A DNA stretch of 64,000 nt from Nereocystis luetkeana (lineage: Eukaryota; Sar; Phaeophyceae; Laminariales; Laminariaceae): positions 7,804,740 to 7,868,739 of the forward strand of contig JARUPZ010000003.1 of the NCBI GenBank assembly GCA_031213475.1, given 5' to 3'. Positions 6,026-57,212 of the stretch are shown here, piece after piece. A program made the position numbers and the translations under genes. Each line of letters opens with the position of its first letter. Within the stretch, counting starts at the first letter, position 1. A model generated the notes under the pieces. The model had not been told where the DNA came from, searched no databases, and worked only from the letters and a program-made list of their open reading frames with translations.

Positions 6026-8440
6026 TTTAGCAGTTTGAGGGCTGAGTTTTCAGCGGCGAGATAAGCTCTCTCTCTAGTCGACGTTGGCGAGGCCCACTCT
6101 CCGCACAAGAACACAGCACGTGCAAGCTCGGAGCAATGAGGAGAATTTGCTCGCGATATATCGTTCATCCCCGCGAAAAACATATCCACGTTGGGTGCCC
6201 CAGGTTCTGGCGGAGCGAGTCCTGGGGGTGGTAGTAGTGAAGGTGTGGCGGTGGAGGGGCGTCCTGGGGGAGAACCTCAAAGAAGGAATACGTACGTGCG
6301 GTGTTGTACTCATACCTGGTACGTACATGTGGCGTCCGAGCTGCTTTTTCCTGAATATGTAGAGCGTGGAGGCGGGACTCTTGGCATGATCAAGTCGCCA
6401 GTTTGCAACTACAACCATCATAACACTTGAATCAATCATGGACCTCTGCCCGCTTCGCATGATTTTGGTGTACTTTTCCTTCCTGAGCGAAGCGTCTTCT
6501 TGCAAATCGTGAAAAATGCTGCCTCGAGTGCTGTAATAATGCTGCTGTTGTTGTACTGCTGTGGGTACTGTAATGTAGGCATGCATGGCACTACGCTGAC
6601 CGGGAGTGTGAGCTCCGTTTGATGTTCATACAGCTTGTGGTACTATACTGCTGCGGCACTTACGAGCATCACGTACACCTGATAAGCTTTAGTACGACCC
6701 TGGCCGGGAATCTAACCTCATTTGTTTGATGTTCATGAAGCGTAGGTCAAGATGTTTGATGGAGCCCTCTGCGCCTACTACTTGTACGTTTGATACGCAC
6801 GTACTTGCATTACGAGTGCAACACACGTCTATATGCTCCCTACTCAGTACTACTTCTACTACTACTGTTGTACTATGGTTTTGCAGCTCTGTTCTACTGC
6901 TGCGTTCGCACGAAGACCACAACAATCGACGCCCACACGAGGCCGCGAGCCACGAGAAAGAGAAGATTCCACGTCGATCACGAAACAAGAAACGCAGACT
7001 ACAGAACAGTGCTGTACTACACAACCTACTCATGGGCTCTCCTCCTGCAGCGTCTCATACATGGACGATCCTGACTGGGCTGTTTTCGCTTCATTTTAAT
7101 ACTTCGCGCCTTGACAGCAAATTGTTGTATTTTAACACCGGGCCTCCACTGACTGCTGTCTATACCGGTAAAAAAACTGGGTAACACATATTATATACCT
7201 GGTAAGTACGTACTGACTGGGCTGGCCAAGACCGGCCTTTTAGGGTTCTACGCACATTCTCAGTCCGTTTGCGAGCTGTGATCTGAAATTTTGACACGTG
7301 CTTCATCATAGTCTTCCCGAGGGATTCATTACTGCACCACTCGTTTTTTTTTCGGGAGCTAAGGCACATTTGAAAAAACCCAACAAATGCTTAAGACCGA
7401 AACTGACAGAAAAAAAGTAAAAAAAAAAGTGGCGCAGTAGTGAATCTATTTGTCTTGCCCGTAAGGAAGGCGTGAAAAAAAATCGATGCCGGAATAAGAT
7501 AAACCGGCGTGAGAAAAGCAGATTTTATGCATCTCATCATAAAATCTTGACTTTGTATAGGATATCGTATATACGCCATACCTCTTGATGTAAATATAAT
7601 TAGGCGTTTTTAAGGGTGTCTGTACTTGGGGCGTGCCTCAGGGAACGTTCACACCGAGTACCAGCGGCATCGCTTGTCGGGCTTTCGAATAGATTTTAGT
7701 GTTGACATTTTACGGGAAATATATGTCTTCTCGATTTCTCGATGAAATCAATTCGGATTTCGAAAAAATCAAAGTCGGCAAAAATGCGCTGCCGGCCCGG
7801 TAATACTGTATAGTACTTCCAAGTGATTGCGAAAGCGCAGGACGAATATAAAAGCTGCTCTTGGCCAGCCCAGCTCGTAGTGCGTTCGCGGGGGTCTGAC
7901 AGCAGGCTCGAGTATATAGGTTGGTGGAAAAAATAAAATAGCAGTAGTACGAAGTAGTACTACACTCTGTTGATCAGCGTCGGCCCGTCCATCGAGCGCA
8001 CGAGACCAGCGCAAAGCAACAACACGTGCCCCACCATTGCCCGAGGACAAAAAGGAGGAGAGGGGGCTTTGATCGAGGCTGGGGCTAGCTGAGGCGACCC
8101 TAGATAATCAATAACGGCAAAAAATACCTGGTCTAAAGGGCGGATTAAACAGTACTGACGAAATGTGGGCACACGATATCACGACTAATACGGAGAAATA
8201 TCGAATGGCACTCCGACGATATTGGATCAAGGAGTCCGACCCGGTCGGCCAGGAATATGTTTTATTACCACACAAAGTGCCGGCACTACTATCGTAGCAG
8301 CGTGTCTTGTGTGTTTCGTGTGCCTGGTGGGTTCAGTGTGCTTCGGGCTTCCAGTCAGATGCATCGAGATCCTGGCTGGGACGTCTCATGAACATATTGA
8401 CCAGCCATATATATGCAAAGCCTACGTATAGCCCCATCAG
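6026..8440. other. Long stretch without a recognisable gene
   Basis: Only short frames are present, several created by TAC or ACT runs near 6840-6870. TACCTGGTA is found at 6313 and 7196. Microsatellite-like T/A tracts lie near 7410-7440. No RNA gene or transposon end could be identified. Confidence 0.4.
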
Positions 8441-8800
8441 ATCCAAAAGCAAGTCTCACGGGAAGTCACTCGGCTCCGTTCTATTCTACGCACCATGGGA
8501 TCTCATTGGACTCCGCACGGGGGTTGGCGGACCCCGTGCGACTGCCTATCTATGGGAAACATATGTGACCGCATGGGCTGTCCCATGGGATGCCTCACGG
8601 GATCCAGGAAGATGTTCCATCGGGTCCCTCGGAACTTACCGTGAGGAGCCCCTTGAAACGTAGGTGAATCCGTGGGATTTCCGACTCAGGATTCGACTGG
8701 AAATGTCATGGGATATCGTACGGGATTTGCCATGAGAACCCGTGGGAGATCCCATGGGATCCCACGGGATATGCTATAGCGCGTGGGGTTCATTCACATG
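8441..8800. repeat. Degenerate array of CCCATGGGATCC-like palindromic words
   Basis: More than ten variants of CCCATGGGAT, CACGGGATCC and CGTGGGATTT are scattered at irregular spacing in both orientations. The same type of word fills 35620-36260. No regular period exists, so it is not a simple tandem repeat. It is followed by an AT microsatellite (8845-8885). Confidence 0.55.
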
Positions 8801-10987: not shown

Positions 10988-11887
10988 TCATTTCTCCGGA
11001 GCAGGAAGAACCGCCAAGGAACGACTGACAAAGCTACACAAAGCCGGGAATATCGCAAGGATACGGAACACGGTCTTGGCCATGAACCCGCTGTTGTACC
11101 TTTGCCCACACTTCCTCGATCCCACGGCTTTGCAGATACAGGCCGTGGGCACAGAGACGTCGTCTACGGTCGCTCTCGTCAGGTGTATCTCGTACTGCTT
11201 CCTACCCCTGTCTGCGTAATCCAACCCGAACAACTTTTTGGTTTTTTCTGGGCATGCCTCAAAGTTGTCCCGGATTGACCGCATGGAGCTCTCGATCAGA
11301 TCGGTGCGAGTCAATCCCGGGTTGATGGTGCTAACCTGGACGTCGAACACGCCGAGCTCGTCGCGTAGAACGCGTGCGTACGCCTCGATCCCGAACTTGG
11401 ACGCGCTGTACGACGAGCCTCCCCACATGGGGCAGAGTCCAGCAACGGACGACATGAAGACGATCCTCGATCCAGCGTTGTCCACGAGAAGGGGGAGGAA
11501 CATTTTGGTCATCCTCATGGTGCCAAGGAGGTTCACCGAGACCACCCTCTCGGACGTCTCCAGAGGAACGATGAAGGCCTCGCCGCTGCTGGCTATACCG
11601 GCATTGTTTACGAGGGCGTGCAGCTTCCCGCTGTACTCCGCCTCCACCATATCTGCCAGGCGCGCCACGTCTTCGGTCTTGGTGACGTCGCATTTCTCGG
11701 CCCGGACACTGGTGTCCTCTTCTCGGAGTTTGCGGGCGCCTTCGTCGGTGAGGCATCCCGCGATCACGGTGTACCCGAGCGAACTGAGCTTCTTGACAGC
11801 TGCGTTCCCGATTCCGTGGTCGCATCCTGACACCACGACCACCTTTCCCATGCCGTGGTAGTGGGGAACGCAGCTGAAGAACCACAT
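10988..11887 (-). CDS. Short-chain dehydrogenase/reductase 1 (SDR9C / retinol-dehydrogenase-like)
   Basis: Predicted NAD(P)-dependent oxidoreductase of 299 aa acting on an alcohol/ketone, perhaps a lipid, retinoid or steroid-like compound; the true substrate is unknown. The Rossmann signature is GCDHGIG (residues 21-27). CDVT (66-69), NNAG (94-97), Asn119, Ser147, Tyr160 and Lys164 (YSASK) make the full catalytic tetrad, and NPG follows at 189-191. The GCDxGxGN form is typical of the SDR9C group (RDH5, HSD17B6, BDH1). The open frame extends 31 codons upstream without ATG; I chose the ATG at 11887 because both paralogues start at the matching position. The C-terminus is hydrophobic (VFRILAIFPALCSFV), possibly membrane-associating. 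Single exon, apparently intact. Closest relatives in the window are at 21974 and 42303. Confidence 0.92.
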   Translation of the reverse strand: MWFFSCVPHYHGMGKVVVVSGCDHGIGNAAVKKLSSLGYTVIAGCLTDEGARKLREEDTSVRAEKCDVTKTEDVARLADMVEAEYSGKLHALVNNAGIASSGEAFIVPLETSERVVSVNLLGTMRMTKMFLPLLVDNAGSRIVFMSSVAGLCPMWGGSSYSASKFGIEAYARVLRDELGVFDVQVSTINPGLTRTDLIESSMRSIRDNFEACPEKTKKLFGLDYADRGRKQYEIHLTRATVDDVSVPTACICKAVGSRKCGQRYNSGFMAKTVFRILAIFPALCSFVSRSLAVLPAPEK

Positions 11888-12171
11888 GGTCGAAGTTGTG
11901 TTGATTGTACTGAGAGAGCGAAAGTGGAGGATGCTGGGGTGGCGAAGGTACGTAAATGCATGACGTCTTCGGAGTATCACCGCATGTCAAGGAGTTCCTG
12001 TTCTAGGAATTTGTAGGCCGTTCGTTTTATTCGAATAGTAGTAATAGTAGTAGGCGGTTTCACTGGAAACGGAGGTACCATTTTCAGTAGGTAGTGGATG
12101 TTGGCAAAAACGAGGGGGGGGAAGGGGGGGCGTTTCTATGAGTCGTGGTGTAGTGTTGTGGGTTCCACACA

Positions 12172-12326: not shown

Positions 12327-12520
12327 CTGTAGTATTCTGTCTCTCTACCGTTGATCATGTATTACGGGGGACCATAGTTAATAGGACCAAATATTGTTGG
12401 TAAAAATGGTTAAATATATAGGTTTTTATGTACACCATAGGTCCTATTAACTATGGTCCCCCGTAATAGTGTAAGTAAGTGTTGGACTGGACGATACCTC
12501 TTGCGCCGGGCAGGACGTCT
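12318..12520 (-). mobile_element. DIRS 3' end fragment A, split by a MITE
   Basis: 12318-12359 and 12469-12520 together match the reverse complement of about 5455-5540 (TGTAGTATTCTGTCTCTCTA, then GTGTAAGTAAGTGTTGGA). The MITE at 12362-12466 lies between them, so the DIRS end was present before the MITE arrived. Confidence 0.6.
12362..12466. mobile_element. TA-flanked MITE, copy 1 (105 bp)
   Basis: The ends are near-perfect inverted repeats of about 27 bp, starting TTACGGGGGACCATAG. The copy is flanked by TA on both sides (12360-12361 and 12467-12468). The core is TTGTTGGTAAAAATGG and a TTAAATATATAGG block. The TA duplication suggests a Tc1/mariner-type source. No coding capacity. It interrupts DIRS end fragment A. 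Confidence 0.88.
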
Positions 12521-13365: not shown

Positions 13366-14039
13366 GTAGGGATGTTGACTACGTAATCGAGAGAAATATG
13401 GGGAGTATGAGGCGGTGGCACCCATCCTCCCGTCCGTCGTCCACGCTCTGTTTGCACCTCATTTACCAAAACCGGACAGCCTGAAAGGACGACCGTCTCA
13501 GCTGTATAGCTGTAGCGCGGCCAAAGGGATGTAGGAGCCGAAGTGCACGCTCGCAGCAGCACAAAGGTGAAGCAGGACTGGGCGAGCCTGCCTCCAGGAC
13601 CGATACAATGTAAGAGACGTCTATACACCAAGTACCTGTTACTGCAGTATCGTGTGGTTGTACAAAAGTGCAATTGATACAGAGTCTGTACGTCGAACAA
13701 TGCTGCTGCTGGAGACTTCCTCGGACTTACCAGGTACTGCAGTACGTACCTGGTACAAGGAGTACCGATACCTATTGGTGCGCTACTACTAGGGCAGGAT
13801 GGACCCCGATTGCTTACACCGTGCGAGTTTCGCCGTTCTTTGTACTCGCACCTTTCCCCACAGCAGCAGTTTTATCTATTCCTGGTGACTGGACAGGTCA
13901 ATAAAAATACGACCCGGTACCGTTCTGAAAGGGAATGTAGCGTGTAAACATTAATATCCATGATACGAAAAAATCTTTATTTTTCCGTTCAGAGTTGTGT
14001 GTACAGCCCTGGCAACATACACGTCGTGCGTTGCGTGCA
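13366..14039. other. No gene recognised; paired TACCWGGTA sites
   Basis: TACCAGGTA at 13728 and TACCTGGTA at 13747 lie 19 bp apart around CTGCAG. Otherwise no domain or RNA feature was seen. Confidence 0.4.
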
Positions 14040-17478: not shown

Positions 17479-17516
17479 CTTGGCCTCATAAGGCAAAAAA
17501 GTTCAAACCCTTATTA

Positions 17517-17623
17517 TTTACCGGTGGCCAAAGTAAATATAACCAAATATTGTCGGTGAAAAAAGGTAAATATATAAGTGTTTGTGTGTACCTCAGGTCC
17601 TGGTTACTACGGGCCCCCGAAAA
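17517..17623. mobile_element. TA-type MITE, copy 2 (degenerate, in unit 1)
   Basis: The core ACCAAATATTGTCGGTGAAA and the TAAATATATAAGTGTTTGTG block match the family, but both ends have diverged (TTTACCGGTGGCC and GGGCCCCCGAA). Carried inside the tandem duplication. Confidence 0.6.
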
Positions 17624-17971
17624 GAACCCGTGGGATGATCAGCGTCTCACACAGAAATATGTCTGTACCCTGTCCACCCAACGACCTGGATTTGAGGAGC
17701 AATGTAAGCTCCATCAGCAAGCACGATGCACAATGAAGCTGGCCATGAAAATAATAATATGCAATACACCTCCGAAGGCAGGCATATAATGGGGCAGATC
17801 CTTCACAATCGGGAAGCCCCGTCAATGGGACATGTTTGGCCCTAAACCTTTTAAGGCAACAGTCCCGGTTTGGGGACAAAATGGTCAATAATTTGAGTGG
17901 TTTGCCCCCCAAAATTGGAACCGATCAGCACACGCTTGGCCTCAGAAGGCAATAGGTTAAAACCCTTGCTA

Positions 17972-18192
17972 TTGCGGGGGACCATATTAAATAGAACCAA
18001 ATATCGTTATTACGGGGGACCATAGTTAATAGGACCTGTGGTATACATAAAAAAACCTACGAAGTATACATTTAACGATTTCTACTAACAATATTTGGTC
18101 CTATTAACTATGCCCCCCCGTAATAGTAAAAATAGCGAAATTTACAGGTTTTTGTGTGTACCGGAGGTCCTGTTTACCATGGGCCCCCTTAA
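17972..18192. mobile_element. TA-type MITE, copy 3 (interrupted by copy 4)
   Basis: Left part 17972-18007 (TTGCGGGGGACCATATTAAA...) and right part 18126-18192 (AAAATAGCGAAATTTACAGG ... GGGCCCCCTTAA) are the two halves of one old MITE, the counterpart of copy 2 in unit 1. Confidence 0.75.
18010..18123. mobile_element. TA-type MITE, copy 4 (nested, 114 bp)
   Basis: Near-intact inverted ends (TTACGGGGGACCATAG ... CCCCCGTAA), with TA at 18008-18009 and 18124-18125. Removing the element and one TA restores the family core ATATCGTTAGTAAAAATAG of the outer copy. This demonstrates the TA target duplication. Confidence 0.9.
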
Positions 18193-22889: not shown

Positions 22890-25589
22890 ATCAGCTAGAC
22901 TGCAGCACGTCAATGATTTCGATGTGACGTGATGCGATGGAGTTATACTCAGAGGGTATTCGCGGTAGTCCTGTCGCTTTTCGGGCTTGACAACGAGTGC
23001 TCGAGCTTCAAAAAAAGGGGTTCTCGTCCAAGTACAGTATGTATGTGTGCTTGTTGAGTTTGAGCACTGGTTTTGTCAGACAAATCGGAGGCACATTCAA
23101 AAACGGTGAGGCTCGTACTTAACAACAAACTCCGTTTGTTGGCATTAGCAAAAGAAACAGAATGCGACACATTCGCGAGCCTTGGTTTTTTGTACCGAAG
23201 GCGGTGCACTAACTGACGAGGCAAACACACAGTACTATTGTGACACATAGCGCATACACAGCACATATGACCGAACAGCAAATTGCCACGATGTTGTGTT
23301 GATTTCCCAATAATCGTATGATCTATAATATGTATTCGTGTCCATAGAAAAAACCCTTAGTTAAGGGTGTGCAATTGACTGCCTGCCATTCTGGGGGTTG
23401 CCTACCACGTCCGCCACAGTATATACCAAGTTGTTGCGATAGAATGTTGCTGTTAGTAGTAAATGTGGTTCGCCTGACCCGGCTGAACGACCAGACCTTG
23501 CTGACTGTCCCATCACACAACATAATACAATAGTGAAGGCTATTCTGGGGCCGGATTGGGCGTCTATGGTGTCGAAGTCGGGCCAAATGAACCATTTCTA
23601 CAGTAAGTAACAGCTTGTTCTCGGCGGAGGAGATATTGAGGTACTGGAGCACGCGGCAGGGGTGGATTGCCCATAGAAACCCTCGGCCTCGCCCGGGTTA
23701 CATTCTGCGAGGCAACCCGTCACCCTCTCGGCGCATGGAGCCACATCATTGGAGAGCCGCACGTCTGAATGCCACAAGCAGGCAGTTCAATTCCGTCGCT
23801 GAGCCGGAGAGAGGGAGTCAAGGCATAGCGCTCACCATGGCGGCAGCCGATTGCACTGAGAGGAACGATATTCTCTGCGTTCTGTTCCGGCTGTTTGTGG
23901 TTTGTGGCAGTGACAGGGCCCAGCAGCACAAGAGCGCCGCGCAATGACGCGGAAGAGTCGTACTCTAACCATGCCCGACCATGTTGCTCTTCACCTCTGC
24001 CCTATATGTATTTAAGCGCGAACCGCGGCACGAACCCTACAAGCAGTTGTGCCGGTCTCCCACAGGTTGCAGGGCGTACCGAAGTATGGACCGTTTAGTA
24101 TCCCTCCGGCTTGTAGGGGTCTTGACTATCCCGCATATGCCTTGAGGCCATCAAATCATGAATGAACTCCAAACAAGTACAAGTAACTCGCTGATGCTAG
24201 TACACAGATGCAGCGAACAAGGATGTCGACGACTGAATTCGTCCTGTCGACGACACTACATACACTATTGGACATACGAGAAGAGACCGTTGTCAAGCTG
24301 GTTTCGGCGAACGACAAAGTTTTCCTTCTTGCGCACAGTATCTTATTTTGGAAACCAAACAGCAGGGGTGGTCGGCCAAATGTTGCAGTCGGACTAACGG
24401 ACAGACTGTCGCGCTGCGTGTGTTTCTTCCTAGTTCTCGAACCTGGCTGGTGTTCAGAGCACAATAAATGAAACACTTCGCTCACGACTATTAATAGTCT
24501 TGTTCCGCCACTGATATTATCGAGAGCGGGAGACAGAAAGTTTCGACAAAAAACACCAATCGAGGAAGACAGTGAGAATGCTGAACCCGACTCCACGAGA
24601 CAGGTTACAAAAATCACCGGGGACTGCACGGTGCTGGGACCACCGCTTGTTCAAAGACGGCCGCTGACGTTGACGTCTCACACAGATTGACGTTGAACGT
24701 AATACGCAATGACCGAAGCACTATGTAGAGCCAGTTACTGTGTGCAGTAGCGTAGGTTTGTTGGCGTACCGCGTTGAATAGTTGCGAGGTGCGTATTTTT
24801 GGATGCCTCGATTCGCCTGGAGGGGCAACCAACAGCTGACAAATGCCACGACACAACAAAACCCGCCGTACGCTCGTTCGAAGTACCATGCAAAAAGTAC
24901 GCACGTACGCAGCTTGTTTATAAAACCTACCAGGTATCAACGAATAGAAAAATAGTTATAAAGCACGATCATTTCCAGAGAACATACGCACTCCTATTCT
25001 AGAGGAAATCTCCGTGAAAAAAAAAGCCGACGGGGGGAATGAAGCTGCACGTGCGTTTCAGCCGAGGTTGGGCAACGTATTGCTGCTTCTTCGCATCACC
25101 GGCCGGGGATAATTTGTATAAATCCGACGCACACAAGTTCACGTGGAAAGTGCAGGGTCAAGGTTGTTCATGATATTTTGTTGTTCGTCCGAGTTGTGCC
25201 AAACACCGAGTACGCAGAACTACGACTGAGGGCTGCTCCTCCTGGCCTGGTGTGCTCTCATCGATTACGTGTAGCCCGGTCTGAATCTCGCTCGTGTGCG
25301 TCAATACGCGTGGCCTCCAGGTATGCCTCCTTGAAGGAAGATGCCGTTCCCCAATTCCGCGGTACTAAAGCATGGATACACACGCACGTAGCCATCTGCA
25401 CGGCTTTGCTGGTATTGGCTTCTCCGTTCATCGATTACCGGCACAAATCTACGTACAAACTGCAGCAATGAATGGACAAATTCTGCGCCTTCTCAATGCC
25501 ATGCGGTATGTATTATAGCTTTCGACTACCACCCCCCTTTGAAGAACGTTCGGTCGATCGACCCAGCGCAGCCTACCATCGCACTTCCA
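22890..25589. other. No gene recognised in 2.7 kb
   Basis: Frames such as 23615-23947 (plus, 110 codons, TTG start) and 24156-24629 (minus, 157 codons) lack a recognised domain. One TACCAGGTA at 24928. No repeat family from the rest of the window was recognised here. Confidence 0.35.
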
Positions 25590-32599: not shown

Positions 32600-34056
32600 A
32601 TCGGCAGTACCTACAAAAAAACAGGAAGTTGTCCATTCATTGAGGACTACTGTTTGCACAGTACTACTCCCACAGTTTTCCCGGGTTGATAGTAGTATAC
32701 CAGGTATATGTCACGGGTGCTCGAGGGGACCCTCCCACGCGACGGTGGGTGGGCAGCCCATGGGATCGCCATGATACAGCCAGCAGCAGAAAATCAGGCA
32801 ACAAGTATATCGCTAATTAATGCAAGGAGGAAAGTCCTCCTAATAAAAAAACAAAAAACATCAAGTAGAGGAAGTAGAGTAGGTAGATCAGGTAGACCTC
32901 GAAGATCCACATAGATAGTAGAGCTCAATCAAGTAGCAGAGCAATTAGAACAGGTATTATTGCGATATAATGGGTGTTGCAGCTCCACCGCGCGAGAGCA
33001 GTACAACCACGCAAAATGACATGTGCGTCGGGGGAGCGCTTCATGAGTTAAGCCATGAGTGTATATACTATGTGTGTGGGGTGGGCGGTGTCGTCGAACA
33101 ACGATTGCTTCATCCTAATATGAATGCCATATATAATGTTGGTGGTACAGTGGGGCTATAGGTTCAGGCTGGCATGCGTGAAGACGGAGCGTGGCGCTGT
33201 GGAGGTATACGGCAACTGTCACAGTAGTACCATGTATATTATACAGCAGTGCAGACTGCCGTCACATTGTACGGGCAATGCACACGTGAATAATACTAAT
33301 TGAAACACGCCAACGTCATCATGAATCCATGATCCTCCAGGACGAGAGCGGGTCGTTCAGGGATGGGGGGCCTTGATGGCCGTGGTCACGTTCATCAAGA
33401 ACTCGACCTGAACAGCTCTCAGATGTCATGCGGTCCCCTGCAGTAGGGTTGTCAGCTTGCGCTCTAAATTTTGGTGGTATAATACGTCCCGGTTGAGTGC
33501 GGGCTCCCACTTTTACTACCTGGTATTGATTATTGATTATTGATTATTTTTAAACCCCTATGATTAGGACTGACTGCAGTCAGTCCCACGTTTGGGACGA
33601 ACAACTGATAGTTGGAGGCGGTTGTCCGCTAAATAAACGGGACGACTGCCGTTCTACACGTAAGTGTGGACATATACATATACATGGTCGTTTGGCGACC
33701 CACCGCGCTTAGGCGTGTAGGTGGGACCCCCAGTGTGCATAGCACAATATTATATTCTGAGACGAAAAAATAAATCCCGTGGGACCATGACGAATGGGAC
33801 CGACCACGGAATTTCTTTTTTCGTCCCGGGCTTTTTTTTTGTTTCTACCAGGTACTTATTTTTACTACAGCATTATTTACTGCTTCAAGGTTCGCAGTCG
33901 TCTCGCAATCGAACGAGTGTCATCGTTCACGTTTCTTCCTCTACCCACGGTAGGAGTAGGTATTAATAGTAGTAGTGCTTCGTCTATGGAGCAAGTAGCA
34001 GAGCAAGTGACAGGGAGCGGCATACCTGCAAGCCTCCTGCTTCTCTATTATTAATA
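32600..34056. other. No gene recognised; TACCWGGTA cluster and palindrome
   Basis: TACCWGGTA at 32698, 33517 and 33846. GGACTGACTGCAGTCAGTCC at 33566-33585 is a perfect 20-bp palindrome. TTGATTATTGATTATTGATT at 33525-33547 is a short tandem repeat. Confidence 0.5.
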
Positions 34057-34161: not shown

Positions 34162-34494
34162 TAGTATATCATACCTGGTAAAGAGGTTACCCTCCGGGTA
34201 ACCTACGAGTACCAGATCAAGTGCATGCTGCTCAAATTCATTCCCAATCAGCCACCTCTATCTGTAGATGATATGATGAGCGGTTGTGACCATATTACCT
34301 TGGCGCAGGTGTGCCCTTTGGATCCGTAAGATAGCCAGTGACCTTCAGACCCACAATATATCCTTTACTACTGTACCATGGTAGGTATTATTAGAATCGT
34401 ATACAAACACATACATGCGAGTACCAGGTGTACACCAGGGCTGAAAGGGCTCGCCACATGCACCATCCTCGCCGTTCTGGAGGGGGGAAACGTA

Positions 34495-34749: not shown

Positions 34750-35619
34750 GTGTTACCGCCTTACATTACCTAGAATCCCAACCGTACAGGAGTAGCAGTG
34801 CTCGTAGTAGATCCTACCTGGTACAACACCCCTGAAATAAAGGCGCTGTCGGAGATTGACAGGTTGGCCTAGACTATGCTCGAAGGTAGCGGCGTGGTGA
34901 CCGACTACAATACTGCTGTAGATGATTGCGTAGGACGAGGAGGCTGGCTCATCCTCAAACGCAGTTGAAAGGTTCGTACGTAGAACGGCGATGATATTTT
35001 TTGTTGGTGTTGTTGTCACCGCTCGAAAATTTTCGGTTACTGGTTGTCGGCGCATACAACTAGGTTGTTAACTGTTCCGCTGATGGCGCACATTTTTTGT
35101 CAGAATTCAGCGCACTATAAACAAAGTGGGATGTGCGGTTTGTCGCAGATCCTTTTCGGAGTCCATCGTCGTTTTTCGACGGAAATAATGCCCGGGCCTG
35201 ATTTCGTGGAATGCGTTTTTTTTGTGGATCCACTTCCGGCCAAAATTGTGTATTGGCGGGTTGTTTTCGCCGCAGGCGCGTTTTTTTTCGTGTGTCTTTT
35301 TGGTCTCCTTTGCGACAATTAATTGCATTCCGAGATTCTTTGTGTATTTTGTTTTTTTCAGGGAATGAAGTCCGAACACCCTGATATGTTTTCCTCCGTC
35401 CGAGAATGAAACAAGTGTTCTATATTATTTAGTGGTAAGAGAGAAGACGCACATTGCGAGTGAATACATGCATGTAGGTTCAAATATTTGCCCCCGGCGG
35501 CCCCTCCAGGCACCCTCCGCCACCCTCGCCGAGGGGGGGGCGCTCCACGCGCCGGAGGCTTAACTGCTAACCCTGGTTTGCATCGTCCTCGGTTAACATG
35601 TTCACATGTATGTGTCGGA
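34750..35619. other. No gene recognised; weak hydrophobic frame
   Basis: A plus ATG frame at 35083-35322 (79 aa) ends in a hydrophobic stretch (VVFAAGAFFFVCLFGLL); no other support. A G+C-rich block, CCGGCGGCCCCTCC..., lies at 35490-35560 and resembles one at 52550-52620. Confidence 0.3.
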
Positions 35620-36788: not shown

Positions 36789-36910
36789 TTACTGGGGACC
36801 ATAGTAAATAGGACCAAATATTGTTATTAAACATAGGTAAATCTATACCAGGTACCTGGTAGTTTTTTGTGTGTACCGTAGATCCTATTTACTATGGTCC
36901 CCCGTATTAA
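36789..36910. mobile_element. TA-type MITE, copy 8, carrying a double TACCWGGTA
   Basis: The ends are TTACTGGGGACCATAG and GGTCCCCCGTATTAA, flanked by TA. The core differs from the family by a 14-nt addition: TACCAGGTACCTGGTA stands where copies 1, 6 and 9 have only TA before GGTTTTT. The addition is exactly two 7-nt steps. Confidence 0.9.
36846..36861. repeat. Overlapping pair of TACCWGGTA sites, probable footprints
   Basis: TACCAGGTA and TACCTGGTA share their middle TA. Sister MITE copies lack these bases, giving a direct empty-site comparison. I interpret the pair as two successive insertion-excision events at the same TA. Confidence 0.7.
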
Positions 36911-36919
36911 TAGTGAAAA

Positions 36920-38079: not shown

Positions 38080-38720
38080 TTGAGCGTTTCTGTAAAAAAA
38101 CTTGTCCATCTGCCCAATCTCCTTCATTCAGTATTGCGACAGACTGTCTTCGTGTGTTCATACACTCCACAAGTAAGTCTAGTAATAGCTGTTCAGTATT
38201 CTCTGGAAAACTGCCCTGCGAATAAAAAGGCTCGAATACATCTTTGACATCAAGTGTGTTTGGAGCCCATACCTTTTGAACCCCCGAACGTATCTCACGG
38301 CGTCCCAGAAATAAATAGAAATATATACCTGGTAGGCTGCTTGTGTAAGGTGTGGTCGAGCCCTGAACTCAGCACCCACGCGCCCGAGAGAGATCGAGGT
38401 ATCGGTGGGCCTAAAAAAAAAGCGCGTCGTGACTGAACAGCAGCACATTTACTACCCATCCCGTGTACTGAGCGCAGAGAACGAAATGTTTCTACAGGCA
38501 CAGGCCGGTCAAGTATTACACACGCCGGTTCGTACGTATTGTGCCTGTAAGTTATCGTATAACGTTGATGATGCGCAAGTATGCTCCAGAGTGTGTTGAT
38601 TCAAATCATCGATACAAAGTGCAACTGTCGCGGAGGCGCACCCACAGTAGTACCTGGTACATCAGTAAAGCAGGCAACGTGATGCGTTGCATAACAATTT
38701 GCGAGTACATAAATTCAGCT
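38080..38720. other. No gene recognised; TACCWGGTA sites
   Basis: TACCTGGTA at 38326 and 38651. GGACTGCAGTCCCG (38736) just beyond belongs to the CTGCAG palindrome group. Confidence 0.4.
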
Positions 38721-39426: not shown

Positions 39427-39536
39427 TCATGGGGGGGCATAGTAATCAGGACCAAATATTGTTGGTAAAAATAGGTAAGTATATAGGTTTTTGTGTACGT
39501 ATATCGTAGGTCCTATTTACTATGCCCCCCCCGTAA
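39427..39536. mobile_element. TA-type MITE, copy 9 (110 bp)
   Basis: The ends are TCATGGGGGGGCATAG and ATGCCCCCCCCGTAA, flanked by TA (39425-39426 and 39537-39538). The core TAAGTATATAGGTTTTTGTG is the empty-site comparison for the footprints in copy 8. Confidence 0.87.
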
Positions 39537-39539
39537 TAA

Positions 39540-42302
39540 TAGCGAAAGGAGGAGAGTTGGCTGGCGCGCACGACGCCCAAGACACGCAAAACATTCGCAG
39601 AGTCGATCGTCCACAGCATATATCTGTGTGTACGATCGTAGTGCATATAAAGAGCACTGCCGTTGAAGCGGCCTAGGCTATCAAAACGTGGTAGTGCGGT
39701 TATTTTACTGTTGTTGTTGTAGCCTACATCATCGATATCAGCTATTCTGTCGAAAAACTTTTTTCTACTGATTTTTCTCTCAATCAACCAAAAGGAGGAA
39801 AAATATGAAATTGAAAATATATCCCACTGTAAACCATAAAGTTCGCCAGAGAGAGGGCAAAAACATCAGAGACGCTTAGATTTTCCCCTATAACAGACAA
39901 AACGGAAAAATGGGAACGAAACAAAAAATGGGAACGGACGGTTTTTTTTAGAAAGCAAACCAATTGTGTACAACTCCAAGAAAAAAAGTTGACAGTCCTG
40001 TGGGGCTGTACAGCAGCCTTCGAATGAGCTGTCGCTCAGGCTGGAAGTCCTCGGCATCGCCGCGGTAGCCAGCATCTAGAGAAATCACAATAGAGCCAGC
40101 GTATATCGCTTTTTGCGCCCACCCGAAGGCACGAGATGGAGCATGACCGTTCTGACGAGCTCCTCTCACAGGGCTAGCCAAGGGGTTTCGCGGGATCATT
40201 TTGGTTCTCTGATACACCACATGGTTCTGGAGATACGGCTTGGTTCTCATTTTAGGCTTCGTTCCCATTTTTCCGATTTGTCTGTTCTATCTATACGAAA
40301 TAAGATCAGGAAAACCAGGCAAATTACAGGGCAATGCACTCGCGCAATTTGCCTTCTCTGCGCACCATACTCAAGTAGGGGGTGTTGTAGCGGGGGTGCA
40401 AACACTTCCTATGCGATGCCACCAGCGGCACGCCCCCCACATTATGTCTACGCGGAATGTGCACAATCCTCTGTCCCCTGCAGAGCAGGGGTCCTTGCGC
40501 ATATATATGGTATACCATGCAGCGCCCATCCCCCACACATGAACACGACTCTCTACCAGGTAGGTGTAAAACAGAAGAGGGTAGGCGAAACTTGATCTAT
40601 CTACGGTAGGTGTCGTGTGAATTGATATATTCCCACCTTTGAGGTCCTCCGTTTATATCAAGGCTGGCTACAAGTTGGCTACAGATGGCTTCACGTATAC
40701 CAGGTACATGTTTCAGCAGCGGGTCTCGCCCTCCTCACACACACACATACGTAAGGTCACATAAACACGCGTATATCGTTTTTAGCATGCCCATCAGTAA
40801 TCTATTCTGGAGAGAACTTGATCCATATCTCCAAACTCATGGACGTATGACACAACAGGGCATGTATGTACGTATAGCCCGTTGTTAGTTGCGCATATAT
40901 ATATATATATCAATCGCAACGGCTTCTTTCAGTAATCCATCCATTCGTGGTACCATACGCCCACCACAGCCATGTGCTCCTCCGAGGCACATACCAGCGT
41001 CCTATATATCATGGCACTCCGACTTCGTGACACCCCTCCCTTGAACCTCGACCGACCTATGTATACTACCTGAAACTAGGCACCAGACAGCAGGCACCAT
41101 TTCACCCAGGTTGGAGCTTGTCAAACTGAGCGAGTACAGCGGCCTACCAGCGGGTGACACCCCTCCCGTGAATCACGACCGAGCCCGCAGTAAAACAAAC
41201 TAGTCCCGACTCGATGTGTTGCCCGAAACAAACGTAGTACTCGTACTGCAGATCCATATCATATCACATGAACTTTCTTCCGACGCCTAGGACCAGTACT
41301 GATCACCCACCGCAAGCCGATCTAAAACTTCCCAGCCAAGCCTTCACCCAGTGTGTGCAACAAGGACATGACGTACTGATGTGTGTGGCCTATTTCTCCG
41401 CACCTTACAAATACAGGACGCGGTTGGGTGGAAAACAATAATGTTTGAAGTGTAAAGCTCGCCAGGTAATGAACAAAAATGGACTGACATATTTCTTCCA
41501 ACCCGTTAGCATTTTCTACTGTATATATTCGTGCCAACACGCATGCAGAAAAATACCGCTTCCCCTATCGATGTTTTGGCGCCTCGCGAATGCCCAATAA
41601 TATCTCCCGGTATGTTTACCCTCCGCACACGCCTACATTCATTCACCACAAGAGAATCTCCAGGCCAAACCGCTCGACAAACTGGCACTGTCACAAAATG
41701 AGTCTCGCGGAAGAGGAATCCGACAGGGCGAGAAAAACAAAGAAAAAAACACCCAACTGGCAGTCGTTTCTCTCGAGATGATTGCGATACCCCCGCGAGC
41801 TCATCCTTTATACGGCTGGAACTTGTGTGGCGCACTACTGCCTTTCCAACCTGTTTGCCGACTGGTCCAGTTCCTGAGATGTTCATGAAAATGAACGCTT
41901 ACTCACCCTCGCGCCGGTACAACGTCCGATGAAGAGGGCACAAATCAGTCTTACGATCGTTGAGATGATCCTACGCTAGTGTAGGGTATACAATATGCCC
42001 GACAATCCTACGTGGGTCCGGGCGTTAGGTAGCGATGGCATAACGTACACTGGGTCACATGTTACCTCCTTTCAGGGGACATCGGTAACTGTGTGTGAAC
42101 AGTGCAAATTTGTCCCGTTTTACAGGGGAGACAGAAATCCTGGAACTATACCGTTCTTGTGAAACTATGATTTGAGTGAGTTGTCTCACGTATCCAACCC
42201 CAATTCCAAGCAAACAATCACTGTAAGTGCCGACCGAGTCACCGGAAAAATATCATGCCGGTAAATAAAAGAGCGCGCTGGGTATACCAGATTACCAGGG
42301 TA
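39540..42302. other. 2.7 kb without a recognised gene
   Basis: A plus frame (40113-40595, 160 codons) and a minus frame (41506-41886, 126 codons) lack domains and overlap rivals. TACCAGGTA at 40554 and 40698. AT microsatellite at 40892-40910. Confidence 0.35.
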
Positions 42303-48296: not shown

Positions 48297-48615
48297 TCCC
48301 TGGTCGTTTATTGTCCACATACCTACTCTTGCACGCAGCTCTCACACTAGAGCCACTCCACACAGCACTACAAGAGCAAGCAGCAGCACGAGCAGGGGAT
48401 ACTGGAGAGGCACGAGCTCTCTCGCTGTTAGGAATGCTCCGGCACAGCACAGTAGCTGCTCGTTTAGAGTACCCCTGCTACAGATATATAGATGCCTACG
48501 TCTAGCGAGAAGAGCCACAAGACATAATCTCGTCAACGCAGGAAATGGCAGTACTCGTACACTTACAACGCTATTTTACAGGTTAAAAGCACTATGTTTT
48601 TTATTTTGGGGGGGG
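48297..48615. repeat. Left arm of a 330-bp inverted repeat
   Basis: It matches the reverse complement of 50352-50668 along its length, at roughly 65-70% identity. Shared blocks are CGTTTATTGT.CACA, GAGCA..AGCAGC.CGAG, GG.CACGA.CTC.CTC, GTAGCTGCT and ACAGGAAATG.CA.TACTC. The left arm has CACTATGTTTTTTAT where the right arm has CACTACCAGGTATG. Read on the minus strand it encodes a hydrophobic frame also seen in the right arm. Confidence 0.75.
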
Positions 48616-48640
48616 GGGCTGACACATATGTTGCAAGTTA

Positions 48641-50012
48641 GGGGATCCCCCTATTAAGGGGATCCCCCTAGTTAGGGGATCCCTTCTGCCTTAGGGGGTC
48701 CCCTTATATCTTAGGGGGTCCCCTCATATCTTAGGGGATTTCCTCATATCTTAGAGGATCCCCTCATAGCTTAGGAGATCCCAACTAACATTAGGGGATC
48801 CCATCTCGCCTCAGGGGATCCCCTCTGGCCTTAGGGGATCCCCTCTGGCCTTAGGGGATCCTCAACAACTTTAGGGGATCCTCACCAAGTGTGTACCGTG
48901 TGTGCACCCAACATTCACGAATCGTATGTGATATAGCGTCTCTGTTCAGTTTCTTCTTGTTAAATTATTGTCATCATTATTGGGGGATCCCCTAACGCCA
49001 TTTGGGTGATATTCCAATATCACATACATGATGATATTGAAAATCACCGAACATACTTAGGGGATCCTGAACAGGCTCAGGGGATCTCCACCATGCGGGC
49101 ATTGTGTGTGCACCCAACATGTACGAATCGTATGTGACATCGCGTCTTTATTCAGTTTTTTCTTCGAAATCATCGTCAGCATTGGGGGACCCCTAACACC
49201 ATTTATTTCGGTGATATTCCAAAATCACGCAATGATTTTGGAAATTGTGTTGGAATATCAACCACATGGTGTTAGGGGATCCTGTTTTAAACGATGTTGT
49301 TGAAGTGTTATAAACTCGACGCGAGAGGGGATATCCCCGAAGCCTGTTGGGGATCCCGCAAGCCAATAGGATCTCCTAAGCCAATAGGATCCCCTCACTA
49401 CATTAAGGACTAGGACCCAACTTCACGCTGAACACCATGTCATGTAGGTATAATCCCGGAAACCCTCAGGCAAATGGGCGGGTCCCCTAACTCGCAACTA
49501 GCATCCACCCGTACTTTGAGCGGGAGCGGTGCGGTGGACTCAAGGCTCTACGATCCGTACTTGTTGGGTGCACACACAATACACACATGGTGGGGATCCC
49601 CTAAGCCTGGTGAGGATCCCCTAAGCGTGTTCAATGATTTTTCAATATCACCATGTGATATTAGAATATCCCCCAAATTAATGGTGTTAGGGGATCCCCC
49701 AATGATGGCGATAATTTCGTAAGAAGAAATTTAATGGAGACGCTATATCACACACGATTCGTAAATGTTGGGTGCACACACGATACACACATGGTGGCGA
49801 TCCCCTAAGACTGTTGAGAACCCCCTAAGGCTGTTGGGGACCCCCTAAGGCCAGATGGGATCCCCTAAGGCCAGATGGGATCCCCTAAAGTTGGTAGGGG
49901 TCTCCTATTAAAATAATATATGAAGAGATGCCCCTAACATATATATGAGGGGGTCCCCTAAGGCAGAGGAGATCCGCTAACTAGGGGCCTAACTAGGGGG
50001 ATCCCCTAACTC
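48641..50012. mobile_element. Fold-back array of TTAGGGGATCC words (about 1.37 kb)
   Basis: Left half: about 20 copies of TTAGGGGATCC or close variants on the plus strand (48643-49080), spaced about 20-40 bp. Right half: a similar number of GGATCCCCTAA words (49575-50006), giving a large imperfect inverted repeat. The centre holds two direct copies of a 190-bp unit (48890-49070 and 49090-49285: GTGCACCCAACAT, CGAATCGTATGTGA, TCAGTTT.TTC) and two inverted copies (49560 and 49740-49790). Ends are GTTAGGGGATCCCCC and GGGGGATCCCCTAAC. No coding frame. It resembles Foldback-type elements in architecture only. Confidence 0.7.
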
Positions 50013-50351
50013 GTAACACACATGACACTCTGGACGATAGTATAATACCGTTTGGAGGCTAATATCAACATTAAACGCAATTGAATTGTATTGCCGGCCG
50101 GCGTGGTACTGGTGCACCAACGAACGTGGTGCATGTTGCTGCGTACGTACAGCAGTACGTTTTCAACAGAACCAACGACCAATGCTGTACCAGGTATATG
50201 CTCAATCATCGGCTGCAAGTCCGTGTGTGAGTGTTCGTGTTGGTACAGCAGTATCCCGCTGGCCGGAATAATGTTTACCTGGCCCGCTTAATTTCGATAT
50301 TGGACTCCAAGAGGCATTATAATAGAGTCCAGAGTAGTATTTGTCGAAGCA

Positions 50352-50668
50352 CCCAAAAAAAAATAACATACCTGGTAGTGTTTTTAACGTATAAAATACT
50401 GTTGTGTACTTTATGAGTAGTGTCATTTCCTGTAATATCGAGACTGCGTCTTTTTGCTTTTCCCGCGTGAGGTAGGTACCTGTAGCTGTAGTAGGGGTGC
50501 GATAAACGCGCAACTAGCCTTCTGTGCCGTAGCAGCTACAGCAGAGAGGGAGTTCGTGCCGCTCCTCTATCCCCTACTCGCGCTGCTGCTCCTTGGCCCT
50601 GTGTGCGGCGGCTGTTGTGTGAGAGCTTGCATGCGAAAGCACGTCTGTGTACAATAAACAACGAAAGG
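50352..50668. repeat. Right arm of the inverted repeat, with TACCTGGTA insertion
   Basis: Partner of 48297-48615. The TACCTGGTA at 50369-50377 is absent from the left arm, which has TA at the same point. On the plus strand a frame at 50454-50657 reads SRGAINAQLAFCAVAATAER and PLLYPLLALLLLGPVC; the left arm in reverse reads SRGTLNEQLLCCAGAFLTAR and PLQYPLLVLLLALVVLC in the same frame. A small membrane protein is possible but unproven. Confidence 0.7.
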
Positions 50669-51844: not shown

Positions 51845-53207
51845 GGGGACGATTGCTAGAAACCATAAGGCCGCAACAGGGGAGAGGGGATACTATATCA
51901 CTCCATGTACACTTAGGGTTAGGGTAAAGATTACTCTTTTGGGCTCAATTCGCTCAGGCCAGTTGAGTTCCTCGAGTGAGAGCAATTACTTCAAAGCCGG
52001 TGTGATAATGTACTACGCAGTACCTGGGACAGCACTCGTTCATGGACCAGCGCATGCTGCAGAATCGTTTGCGCGAAGAACACGTTTCTCTTCGTAGAAA
52101 ACGTTTCGGGCGAGTTATTGAGCCCCGCCTCATGCGAGGAGCTCTGAAATTTATGAACCACCCCTAAAATGTATTGCTTCCTCTATACCCTGCACCAAGT
52201 CATGTAACGAATATTGCATGTAACAAATGATCAATGCGACATGGTCTGGGCAATAAAACACACGGATGTTGATGTAAAAAACGGATGTGGGAGCCCAACG
52301 GTGCTGAGTTAAGTTGTTTCTAGGTTTATAATCCCCGCCGGCCAAGAATTATTCCGGCAAAAAACAGGTTGCCCCTTTATCGCGTAAAACACGCGTCACA
52401 GCATGCCATAGCATCCTGTAGAACGCTTTTTCCAGGTTTCAGAAGCGGTAAACACGAGTAGAACGTAACAAGGTGTGGTTTCCCTTGTGGCGTATATTCA
52501 CACAAAATCATATACCGCTAACAGTATTCGCCTCCGCGGCAGCCCCTTCGCTCGCGTTGTGCCGTCGTCCGCCGGCATTGGGCTCCGGCGGCCCCCCCTG
52601 AACCCTTGCGGGGGGGGGGTCGCCCCACACCAAAACGTTTTCATTAGTATGCACTGCGAGTACTACCGGATTTTCTCATGTTTGTGCGAATCTCGTGTCC
52701 AACCACGAAGCACACACCTACATACGCATATCCATAGGGTCTTTGTCAACAGTGTTTCGTGCGGGTTCACAGCCCATGGCATTCTGGGATTGAACATGAG
52801 CACGAGCAAGCTGACTACTTGACATGCTTCAGGCTTGGAGTTCTTTTTTAGCAAGCGGCGACTTCCCTAAACTGTTGTTGTCGAAAAAACGTTCCTCGTA
52901 CATGGCCAACATGAAAAACGGTACTATCGAAAAATTGTATCGGAGATGACGGTGAAAGTTGACTGAGTGGAACGGGATCGTGATTCAGCGTTGACAATAT
53001 TACTCCGCCGCCCTCCCGCCCCATCCTGTCCCGTCTAGACGGCATTCATTCCTCCCCCGTCTTGCACGTCCCATCCCGTCCCGTCTCCACAGTATTCTCC
53101 CTCGGACCAAGTTGTTGATGCCTTTGCCCCTCAAATATGCATACCGGTACCTGGTACATTGACACTGAAAATGCCAATCAATTCACCGTCAACGTAAACC
53201 TCAGTCG
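51845..53207. other. No gene recognised; G+C-rich block
   Basis: CCCCCCCTGAACCCTTGCGG...CGCCCCA at 52595-52630 could form a hairpin. CCCATCC.GTCCCGTCT words repeat at 53015-53090. TACCGGTACCTGGTA at 53142-53156 joins an 8-mer and a 9-mer footprint form. Confidence 0.4.
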
Positions 53208-53469: not shown

Positions 53470-54185
53470 ATGAAGCGAACAGGTCCGACCCGAACCGATC
53501 GACATCGATACGGAAGTTGAACGATATTCCAGGCAAGGCCGGGCCGAACGGAATCTAACCGAGCCGATCCTCGAACCCAATCGCAAAAAGGAAGGCGCCG
53601 TTTGGATCCATCGAGGGATGGCAGTTTTCTAGGCGAGTTGAATGTTACCTCGTACGGCGCCGTAGGTAAGATGTCGACATTTAAGCGATGATCGTGTTCG
53701 ACTACGCATACAGGTTGGTTCAACCAAGACGCCCAATTTTTTGCTCGCCACAAATTCATGCTCAATAATAGATACCAGGTACTCTAATATCACATATTTG
53801 TATCATAATGACCGTCGTAAACAAAGAACGAGGGTGGCACAACCAGTCTTTTGGTGTTGAGGATCTAGGGCAGTGATGGCCAGGCGCCGCCATTGGAAAA
53901 ACTAAATATTATATATAAATAAAAGTATAAACTCGTTTGCTCGGGACGGTCGCTGTGAGGGCGTTTCTGTAGACGTTCGAAAGATTTGCAACCCTGATTC
54001 GCGAGGGCTTTGAACTTTTCGCGAGTATAGGGACTTTCTAATTGTTTCCGGAATGGTTCTACCAGGACTGTCAGTCTTCTGGCCTATTAAACGTTGATCT
54101 CAGTTGCTTTGGCGTTAAGAGACCGGCTATGAGACGGCTTACGACGCGGGTCATTGGATTTGTTTGTGTGCGTGGACACATGTAG
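53470..54185. other. No gene recognised
   Basis: GGGCCGAACGGA-like words repeat at 53445-53575. TACCAGGTA at 53773. Confidence 0.4.
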
Positions 54186-54792: not shown

Positions 54793-57212
54793 GTGAGTTG
54801 TGTTCTGTGCTTCTCTGTTGCAGGTATTATTGTTTTTGTTTGCTCCCCGTGTCTACCGCCGCGGCTGCTGTTGTTGAGTGTTTTCCACGGTTGGCATTTT
54901 CATTTGTTATATGTACGAGAACTGCTGCCATTGCTGCTGCTGCTGATACGTTCCCTGCTACTGCTGTATCCCCCCGCGTCTACCGCCCCTGATGCTGATT
55001 TCGTTGTTTATGTAGTCGTCGTTCGCATTGCTGCTGTAGGCGGTGTCCACCGCCGCTGCTGTTGTTGTTCACGCTGTTGTTGTCGGTGTTGTTGCTGTTC
55101 CCGCAGGCGAGTACACGAGGCTTCGTGGCGCAGCCCACTGCTGCTGCTGCTGCTGCTCCTCCTCCTCTTCCTGCAGTTAGTTGTAACCTCGCCCGCCTAC
55201 CGTGCCTGATGCTGCTTTGTTGTTTATGTAGCCGTCGTTCGCGTTATTATTGCTGTTCAAGGTAGCTTTGAGTCAGTGTCTACCACCGCTTCTGCTGTTG
55301 TTTACCTGGTATGCTGTTGTTGTTCGCGTTGTTGCTGTCCTCGCACGTTGTCTATCTTCAGCACTAAATACAAGAAAAAAAAGCTCGACAATTTCAAGAT
55401 ACTTTTTGAACACTACAACCAAGATGTGTATGCCTTTTCTTCATGATATACATACGAGCTCACACAGAGATGGGGGTATAAAAGGCGTATGCGCTGCTGC
55501 TGCTGCTGCCGTTGTTATGCACAGCCTGCGCTCCTTTCCGAACCAAGACAGGTGTCTATCGCCGCTGCTGCTGTTGTTGATGATTTTGTTGTTGCTGTTG
55601 TTGCTGTTCCCGCACGTATTCGACCTTTAGCACTAAATCCAAGACAAAAAGTACTAACTTCAGTAACACCATTTCTTTATTGATGCGTTCCAGCGCATAC
55701 TGCCATTTGTTTTTGCGCTACTGCTACCGCTGCTCCTGCCGTTGTTGTTTGCAGCCTGCGGTCCTTTGGTTGTTACAGACTCCATTTTTCCCCACTCCAA
55801 AACAGAAGTTGAGACCTACCATTTAGTTTTATTACACAAGCTCTGCCTCCACACCGAGTATATGCGCTGCAGCTGCCGCTGCTACTGTGGTGCAGCCTGA
55901 GTTCCTTTCAACACCGAAACAAGTAAGTGTCTACCGCCGCTGCTGTTGTCGTTGTTTAAGCTGTTGTTGGCGTTGTTGCTGTTCCCGTGCATAGTCAACC
56001 TTCAGCACTAAAACCGAGATAAACAAATTACGTACTAATATCGACATATTGTTTTGGGCACTATAACCAAGATATTTTTGCCATTTTTCCTAATACAAGC
56101 TCTGCCTCCACATCGAGACAGGGGTATAGAACGCGTACTGCCCTTTGTTTATGCGCTGCTGCTGGCGCTGCTGCTGGCGCTGCTGCTGCCGTTATGATAT
56201 CCAGCCTTGGTTCCTTTCTACGCCGAGACAAGTGTCTACCGCCGCTGCTGCTGTTGTTGTTTATGCTGATGTTCTTGGCGTTGGTGCTGTTCTCGCGAGT
56301 AGTCGATCTTCATCACTGAAACCAAAACAAAAAATAACGTACTAATATCGGTATATTTGTTTTCGCACTATCACCAAGATATTTAGCCTTTTTCTTTTCT
56401 GACGAGCTCTGCCTCGACATCGAGACAAGGGTATAGAACGCGTACTGCCATTTGTATATGCGCTTCTTCTGCCGCTGCTGCTGCCGATATAATATCCGGT
56501 CTGCATTCCTTTCCACACCTAGGCAAGTGTCTACCGCCGCTGCTGCTGTTGTTGTCTATGCTGTTGCAGTTGGCGTCGTTGCTGTCCCCGCGCGTAGTCG
56601 ACCATCAGCAAAAAGAAAAAGATAACGTAGTAATATCGATATATATTTTTGCACACTATAACCTAGATATTTTTGCTATTTTTTCTGATACGAGCTCTGC
56701 CTCCACATCGAGACCGGGGTATAGAACGCGTACTGCCCTTTGTTTTTACACTGCTGCTGCCGCTGCTGCTGCCGTTATGCTATCCAGTCTGCGTTCCTTT
56801 CCACACCGAGGCAAGTGTCTACCGCCGCTGCTGCTGTTGCTGTTGGCGTTGTTGCTGTTCCCGCGCGTAGTCGACCTTCAGCGACCAAGACAAACAGAAC
56901 GTACTAATTTCAGAATATTTTTTGCGCACTATAACCAAAATATGTTTACTTTTTTTTCTGATACGAGCTCTGCCTCCACATTGAGACAGGGGTATAGAAC
57001 GCGTACTGCCATTTTTTTATGCGCTGCTGCTGCCGTTGTTGTTTTTTGCACACTATAAACGAGATTTTATTATCCGAACAGTTGACATTGTTGTTTACAG
57101 CCTGGTTTTCGTTCCACACCAAGACAGTTGTCTACCGTTGTCTTTGTATTAAACACGCTTTAGATTTATTTTTTGTTGTTGTCGGTTTTGTGTCTCTGAT
57201 CTATTTTTGCAG
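54793..57212 (+). repeat. Candidate 2.4 kb intron made of tandem 190-375 bp units with CTG runs
   Basis: The word GTGTCTACCGCCGCTGCTG or close variants recurs at 54849, 55043, 55276, 55552, 55927, 56232, 56527, 56815 and 57128. From 55927 the spacing settles near 290-315 bp. Each later unit also has a CTGCCTCCACA.CGAGAC word, a GGTATAGAACGCGTACTGCC word and a CACTATAACCAAGATATTT word. CTG triplets vary in number between units. Frames inside are Leu/Cys/Ala runs and not credible. The array ends at a TTTTTGCAG acceptor (57204-57212). Confidence 0.75.

Follow-up and report, generated by a model that had tools for sequence, protein, structure and literature searches.

We identified 21 exact copies of the word TACCWGGTA (A-centred, n = 9; T-centred, n = 12) in a 64,000-nucleotide (nt) stretch of the Nereocystis luetkeana genome (C3:7804740-7868739, hereafter the window), the first at position 6313 and the last at 55303-55311, where Markov models predict about 0.5. 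An earlier note on this DNA had claimed a roughly 40-fold excess of this 9-mer, and our recount agrees. We consider it probable, at about 0.85, that TACCWGGTA is as a rule the scar left by excision of a TA-specific transposable element; this figure covers the scar explanation as a whole, under both overhang geometries discussed below. The phenomenon is real and extends genome-wide beyond the window.

The assembly (465,085,209 bases, 1,987 contigs) contains 182,395 copies of TACCWGGTA compared to 1,744 of the same pattern read backwards, so the excess noticed in the window persists under the genome-wide count that the earlier note had proposed. The C/G-centred form TACCSGGTA occurs 10,882 times (backwards control 1,899) and only once in the window. 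As TACCTGGTA and TACCAGGTA are reverse complements of each other, the split between A and T centres is by itself uninformative on mechanism; what matters is the rarity of C and G at this position. Among window 9-mers composed of an arm, a central A or T and the reverse-complement arm, TACCWGGTA ranks first (n = 21), followed by CTACWGTAG (n = 6). The 8-mer without the middle base, TACCGGTA, occurs about as often as chance predicts (2 vs. 0.9 expected), as had been claimed. A larger sample of 334 kb, consisting of the window and 27 stretches of 10 kb (L010-L036), has 81 copies vs. 4.8 expected (order-4 Markov model), distributed over 24 of its 28 pieces; some scans described below cover 274 kb. 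Among the 14 most over-represented TA-N5-TA words listed for the 334 kb, no other word occurs in more than nine pieces. Scar flanks have no common extension, except in the duplicated segment L015/L016, a palindrome on L022, and scars within known repeats. Removal of near-identical contexts left 76 of the 81 sample sites. The sample density (1 per 4.1 kb), which arithmetically scales up to about 110,000 genomic sites, is below the assembly mean of 1 per 2.55 kb; part of the genome count therefore probably sits in repeated DNA, and independent events are probably fewer than the raw count.

Repeat comparisons support gain of 7 nt (CCWGGTA) at TA, rather than its loss, in most informative cases. 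In a like-for-like test, each scar was scored against all its relatives once with the scar kept and once with it collapsed to TA. Twenty of 92 scars had a spanning relative, and nine of these had only empty-like relatives. The control, 800 of 1,081 TA-N5-TA words with the tandem array L023 left out, gave 253 words with relatives, which were exclusively empty-like for 20 words, exclusively full-like for 163 and of both kinds for 56, the other 14 being undecided. Scars and controls differed by Fisher's test both for only-empty sites (p = 4e-5) and for any empty site (p = 7e-4), with sites treated as independent. Repeat alignments across the 334 kb contained 30 distinct 7-nt insertions or deletions (indels), eight of which duplicate a TA; five of the eight are the scar motif in single-unit form, two are TACGAAGTA and one is TAACTGATA. 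The insertion at TA proposed in the earlier note is thus borne out by the repeat alignments it had recommended. Both empty sites it had named in the window are real as well: the scar at 50369 is one 7-nt unit facing a plain TA at 48607 in the other arm (opposite strand), and the scarred copy of a miniature inverted-repeat transposable element (MITE) at 36846 has sisters near 12405 and 34100 that lack the addition, though this copy gained 14 nt in two 7-nt units and not the 7 nt reported. The scar at 55303 is a less clean case, owing to a variable GTT run: the unit near 55043 is exactly 7 nt shorter but has CA in place of TA, and the unit near 56231 has plain TTTATGCTG plus one extra GTT, giving a net difference of 4 nt. 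Elsewhere, L014:7563 has three sisters with plain TA (81-85% identity). The empty sites displayed are nearly always the two-base TA, the exceptions being two sisters with TG and the one window unit with CA. Other 7-nt additions were also observed. The MITE sister at 18126 (other strand) carries CTTCGTA at the same place as the 36846 scars, and the TA-duplicating gains TACGAAGTA/TACTTCGTA at 18059 in the window and at L016:999 are possibly another scar type or a mutated scar.

The DNA around the scars differs from that around ordinary TA sites. Read outward from the TAs of the 76 deduplicated scars (152 flanks), the flanks depart in mirror-image fashion: A is scarce at +1 and C at +2, T is in excess at +3 (68 vs. 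38.8 expected, p = 2e-7) and at +6 (74, or 49%, vs. 35.8, p = 9e-12), and A/T is in excess at +7 (123, or 81%, vs. 79.8, p = 7e-11). The +3, +6 and +7 signals recur separately in the window, in the C1 stretches and in other contigs (nine tests with duplicates kept, p between 0.007 and 2e-7). A dimeric transposase acting at insertion would be expected to leave such a symmetric preference about the TA, and a palindromic, AT-rich target preference around TA, as found here, is described for Tc1-like enzymes (PMC7913693). Three further over-represented words, TACGAGTA, TACWGTA and TACGTA, did not have the +6/+7 signal. TACGAGTA occurs 78 times vs. 16.3 expected, in 24 of the 28 pieces, and TACWGTA is in about two-fold excess (133 vs. 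71.2; both 334 kb). Both were considered as candidates for further scars; neither of these two words was found among the TA-duplicating gains.

In the explanation we favour, a TA-specific cut-and-paste transposase would insert an element at TA and duplicate the TA; later excision would leave the last bases of both element ends on the flanks, and repair would join these leftovers to TA-CC(A/T)GG-TA. Element ends of CCAGG or CCTGG would be cut in a staggered manner to give 5-nt 3' overhangs, which could anneal through four base pairs flanking a single A:A or T:T mismatch in the centre, and a few elements jumping repeatedly could scatter such scars over the genome. Overhangs of the sequence CAG likewise pair at both outer bases, with the A:A mismatch repaired to A or T. 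The Tc1/mariner elements Sleeping Beauty and Frog Prince leave the footprint C(A/T)GTA (PMC3878927), which is identical to the 3-nt 3' overhang (PMC7827188). CC(A/T)GGTA is this form with one base pair added on each side, from which we infer the ends CCAGG/CCTGG and the 5-nt overhang, a geometry that we regard as somewhat more probable than its negation.

The earlier note had instead envisaged the same kind of footprint from ends 5'-CCA or 5'-CCT cut with 3-nt overhangs whose last bases overlap as a mismatch. A variant of this geometry would have a 3-nt cut at one end and a 2-nt cut at the other. A 3-nt stagger is stated for Sleeping Beauty and mariner (PMC7827188), and TACCATGGTA, which results when CCA overhangs are filled in completely, occurs 4 times vs. 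0.6 expected in the 334 kb, the one hint in favour of the 3-nt geometry. However, CCW overhangs share no base pair and overlap in only one mismatched base, so that a single dominant product is unexpected. The 3-nt geometry also predicts CCGG or CCATGG/CCTAGG products, and the sample contains TACCGGTA 5 times, TACCATGGTA 4 times and TACCTAGGTA not at all, compared to 81 CCWGG scars. The self-annealing 5-nt overhang seems more economical, and we consider the 3-nt geometry unlikely.

The scars resemble the Sleeping Beauty and Frog Prince footprints in the duplicated TA, the self-complementary core with an A/T centre, the palindromic target preference, and the identity of footprint and 3' overhang, which is reported there (PMC7827188) and deduced here. 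They differ in the core, CWG (3 nt) there and CCWGG (5 nt) here, in the preference for T at +3 and +6 and A/T at +7, and in the number of scars in one genome. Mariner-Tc1 elements of the brown alga Ectocarpus comprise 17 families with about 12,000 copies, mostly non-autonomous, and together with Harbinger are its most diverse DNA transposons (PMC12477816). Their host is likewise a brown alga; the word 'footprint' occurs 0 times in the main text of that study, and no description of excision scars was found there. Grass mariner elements share the TA target and footprint-leaving excision; their terminal inverted repeat (TIR) consensus CTCCCTC, however, is incapable of producing CCWGG, and their excision patterns are described as very complex (PMC4423477). 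PIF/Harbinger and piggyBac elements, both present in Ectocarpus (PMC12477816), are also cut-and-paste transposons. The former duplicate a 3-bp TNA/ANT target (PMC12477816) in contrast to the two-base TA here, and the latter target TTAA and excise seamlessly (PMC3878927), unlike a 7-nt scar at TA. A text search for TACCTGGTA, TACCAGGTA, TACCWGGTA and TACCATGGTA as whole words found no paper containing them, and among the papers listed on footprints and brown-algal transposons, none described scars at such density in its title or abstract opening. Scans of IMG/VR gave no recognised brown-alga DNA; the doubled motif is present in nine of its contigs.

Several observations weigh against the excision explanation. 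A first pass of 98 pairwise alignments, whose tally is sensitive to gap placement, yielded 23 with an exact 7-nt gap, 9 with the full 9-mer, 18 without any gap and 48 with other gaps. Among the 20 testable scars, four had only full-like relatives, five had both kinds and two were undecided; the four are all in the duplicated pair L015/L016, i.e. they represent two events seen twice. One displayed sister each of L016:1556 and L028:9637 has TG and not TA (for L016:1556, the TG sister is 94% identical and a TA sister 92%). Pooled permuted words (13 sites) show a weak departure at both +6 and +7 (p = 0.016 in each case), and a larger control was run for this reason. Compared to the 49% and 81% of the scars, the 892 other TA-N5-TA sites (1,784 flanks) are shifted only slightly, with T at +6 in 475 vs. 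421 flanks (27% vs. 24%, p = 0.005) and A/T at +7 in 1,004 vs. 936 (56% vs. 52%, p = 0.001); the 367 of these sites with GC-rich cores had no significant shift (p = 0.08 and 0.31). Furthermore, every exact scar has five bases between its TAs, outside the 2-4 bp published for Tc1/mariner footprints (PMC7913693) and their overhangs of 2-3 nt (PMC3878927). Finally, no source element or linked transposase was found in the window, 274-kb and 334-kb scans or among the profile matches. Of the Tc1/mariner-type footprint originally proposed, the TA-targeting cut-and-paste character is supported (7-nt gain, duplicated TA, palindromic preference); the scans recognised no TACC-ended element, and none of the transposases could be linked to the scars. 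We infer that an element was formerly present at the scar sites and that its enzyme was of the Tc1/mariner kind. With a footprint length outside the described range and neither element nor enzyme in hand, the system works like Tc1/mariner excision but is not filed as a member.

The search for TA-flanked elements beginning CCA or CCT with matching inverted ends, suggested earlier, yielded no convincing ends starting CC: neither a window scan for TIRs with TACC, TACCW or TACCWGG ends gave any, nor a 274-kb scan for any TA-flanked inverted ends, nor a search for filled and empty repeat pairs in the 334 kb. TACC ends with scored TIRs (334 kb) likewise gave no convincing candidate; follow-up covered the scorers above the range of 9 to 10.5, which, apart from two candidates rejected below, were by eye known MITE parts or simple repeats. 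The 93 contexts of non-scar TACCWGG words had no common extension by eye. If the 334 kb contain none, a compact element with recognisable ends would arithmetically have fewer than about 4,000 copies (95%) compared to about 110,000-182,000 scars, a bound that weakens for multi-kb elements, since these may extend past the edge of a 10-kb stretch, and that no longer applies should a pair scoring 9 to 10.5 be the element. The DD(D/E) transposase anticipated in the earlier note did not emerge either. Profile PF13358 matched none of 30 candidates scored and PF03184 matched 28 of 48; around the pogo-type transposase genes of three PF03184 matches, on C35, C31 and C1, no convincing inverted repeats were found, the best-scoring ones on C35 and C31 being simple or short tandem repeats and the view on C1 limited to 3.6 kb. 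Two individual candidates were rejected, L031:8305-8586 because its repeat runs outward past the TA, and L035:6009-8052 because its true ends read TA-CAGTACCGG. The latter region, a stretch of about 2.05 kb (L035:6004-8057) whose inverted ends are TA-CAGTACCGGCCCGCYAGTAAGAAAC, has the appearance of a transposon that targets TA.

That scars outnumber candidate elements, none of which was confirmed, would also fit ready-made 7-nt insertions, in which an aberrant transposase reaction joins tip fragments into a cut TA and no full element is ever present. An integration-like site preference is predicted by this too, but the prediction is no different for ordinary insertion and later excision, and we know of no precedent for such a reaction, which counts against it; we hold it to be improbable. 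The 9-mer is palindromic, and scars compared across a 2.3-kb duplicated segment (88% identity) are unchanged, as might be expected of a protein-binding site that selection has maintained or multiplied. TA-duplicating gains of 7 nt and tandem 7-nt copies are unlike a binding site, however, and so is a flank signal to +7 on both sides in an otherwise free context, and we strongly disfavour this origin. Apart from the odd regularity of the scars, nothing suggests an assembly or sequencing artefact; the site preference, the scars common to duplicated segments, and a number of C/G-centre variants equal to about 6% of the exact copies, as mutation in real DNA predicts, make it hardly credible.

Under the excision explanation, the variant words bear on the age of the scars. 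One-mismatch words number 73 vs. 52.4 expected beside 68 exact sites (274 kb), and from this modest excess the scars would have changed by roughly 3-4% per base since formation. Genome-wide, C/G-centred words are in excess by about 9,000 per 182,395, a comparable proportion. Older scars also exist, with two segments of 88% identity agreeing in four scar comparisons. Scars also occur in tandem, with at least eight pairs exactly 7 nt apart among 100 places listed on C1 and four such pairs in the 334 kb, two of them from the same duplicated segment. The chance of landing on another scar's TA is about 1-2%, estimated from TA density, and re-use of the same spot thus seems favoured, as the site preference predicts. 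Two MITE copies (window 36846 and L031:6350) are scarred at apparently the same internal TATA. TACCGGTA, TACCCGGTA and TACCCTGGTA directly adjoin exact scars (for example at 53142-53156, and on L013 near 6539 and 7929) and are perhaps alternative repair products at re-used sites. A 61-nt palindrome at L022:384-444, with mismatch-free 24-base outer arms (CATACCAGGTACTACAGCAGTACG and its complement), contains two scars, which bound a perfect palindrome at 388-440.

As a rule, excision footprints vary and are difficult to identify afterwards. With a uniform scar every 2.5 to 4 kb, excision events, target choice and repair could be tallied genome-wide without an assay. Some 7-nt indels in this genome would then be transposon products, which is relevant to gene models (frameshifts) and variant calling. 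The element, if found, may add a cut geometry outside the 2-3 nt range known from Tc1/mariner, and it might provide an active tool for brown algae. We tentatively suggest, at less than even odds, that a transposase cutting five bases inside CCWGG ends jumped about a hundred thousand times but left few copies of itself behind, in which case the genome would record excision and not insertion. More boldly still, removal of the elements might be regulated, as it is in ciliates.

Table 1. Scars and other features of the window
Feature	Position	Strand	Basis and remarks
Scar TACCTGGTA	6313..6321	.	Motif scan
Scar TACCTGGTA	7196..7204	.	Motif scan
Scar TACCAGGTA, member of close inverted pair	13728..13736	.	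Motif scan, flank comparison
Scar TACCTGGTA, member of close inverted pair	13747..13755	.	Motif scan, flank comparison
Scar TACCAGGTA	24928..24936	.	Motif scan
Scar TACCAGGTA	32698..32706	.	Motif scan
Scar TACCTGGTA	33517..33525	.	Motif scan
Scar TACCAGGTA	33846..33854	.	Motif scan
Scar TACCTGGTA, adjoins MITE end	34172..34180	.	Motif scan, repeat comparison
Scar TACCTGGTA	34815..34823	.	Motif scan
Scar 1 of tandem pair within MITE copy	36846..36854	.	Sisters near 12405 and 34100 read ATATATAGG without scar
Scar 2 of tandem pair, one TA common to scar 1	36853..36861	.	Repeat comparison
Scar TACCTGGTA	38326..38334	.	Motif scan
Scar TACCTGGTA	38651..38659	.	Motif scan
Scar TACCAGGTA	40554..40562	.	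Repeat comparison; single weak relative near 22444, uninformative
Scar TACCAGGTA	40698..40706	.	Motif scan
Scar TACCAGGTA	50188..50196	.	Motif scan
Scar TACCTGGTA	50369..50377	.	Repeat comparison; empty TA in opposite inverted-repeat arm (near 48595-48607)
Scar TACCTGGTA, first TA common to a TACCGGTA	53148..53156	.	Motif scan, flanks
Scar TACCAGGTA	53773..53781	.	Motif scan
Scar TACCTGGTA in tandemly repeated stretch	55303..55311	.	Sister units without scar
Short-chain dehydrogenase gene (Pfam adh_short)	10988-11980	-	One of three paralogues spread over 32 kb
Short-chain dehydrogenase gene (Pfam adh_short)	21974-22876	-	As above
Short-chain dehydrogenase gene (Pfam adh_short)	42303-43205	-	As above
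MITE family copy, ends TTACGGGGGACCATAG	12353-12474		Repeat comparison
MITE family copy	17509-17629		Repeat comparison
MITE family copy	18008-18125		Repeat comparison
MITE family copy	34048-34168		Repeat comparison
MITE family copy	36649-36912		Repeat comparison
MITE family copy	39418-39547		Repeat comparison
Open reading frame with NADAR domain	62429-63295	+	Domain search; weak aspartyl-protease match

Besides the scars, the window encodes three dehydrogenase paralogues whose DNA is about 75% similar over 300 nt (Table 1). The nearest named relatives of the second are from Scytosiphon promiscuus (74%), an Undpi1-labelled protein that we read as Undaria (73%), and Laminaria digitata (78% over 93%), which mark the genome as brown-algal; the IMG/VR scan gave no relative of this dehydrogenase and no match to the MITE word. 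Dense nested inverted repeats made of TTAGGGGATCCCC words occupy positions 48639-50008. NADAR domains, one of which lies near the end of the window, are mentioned in Gypsy elements of Ectocarpus (PMC12477816).

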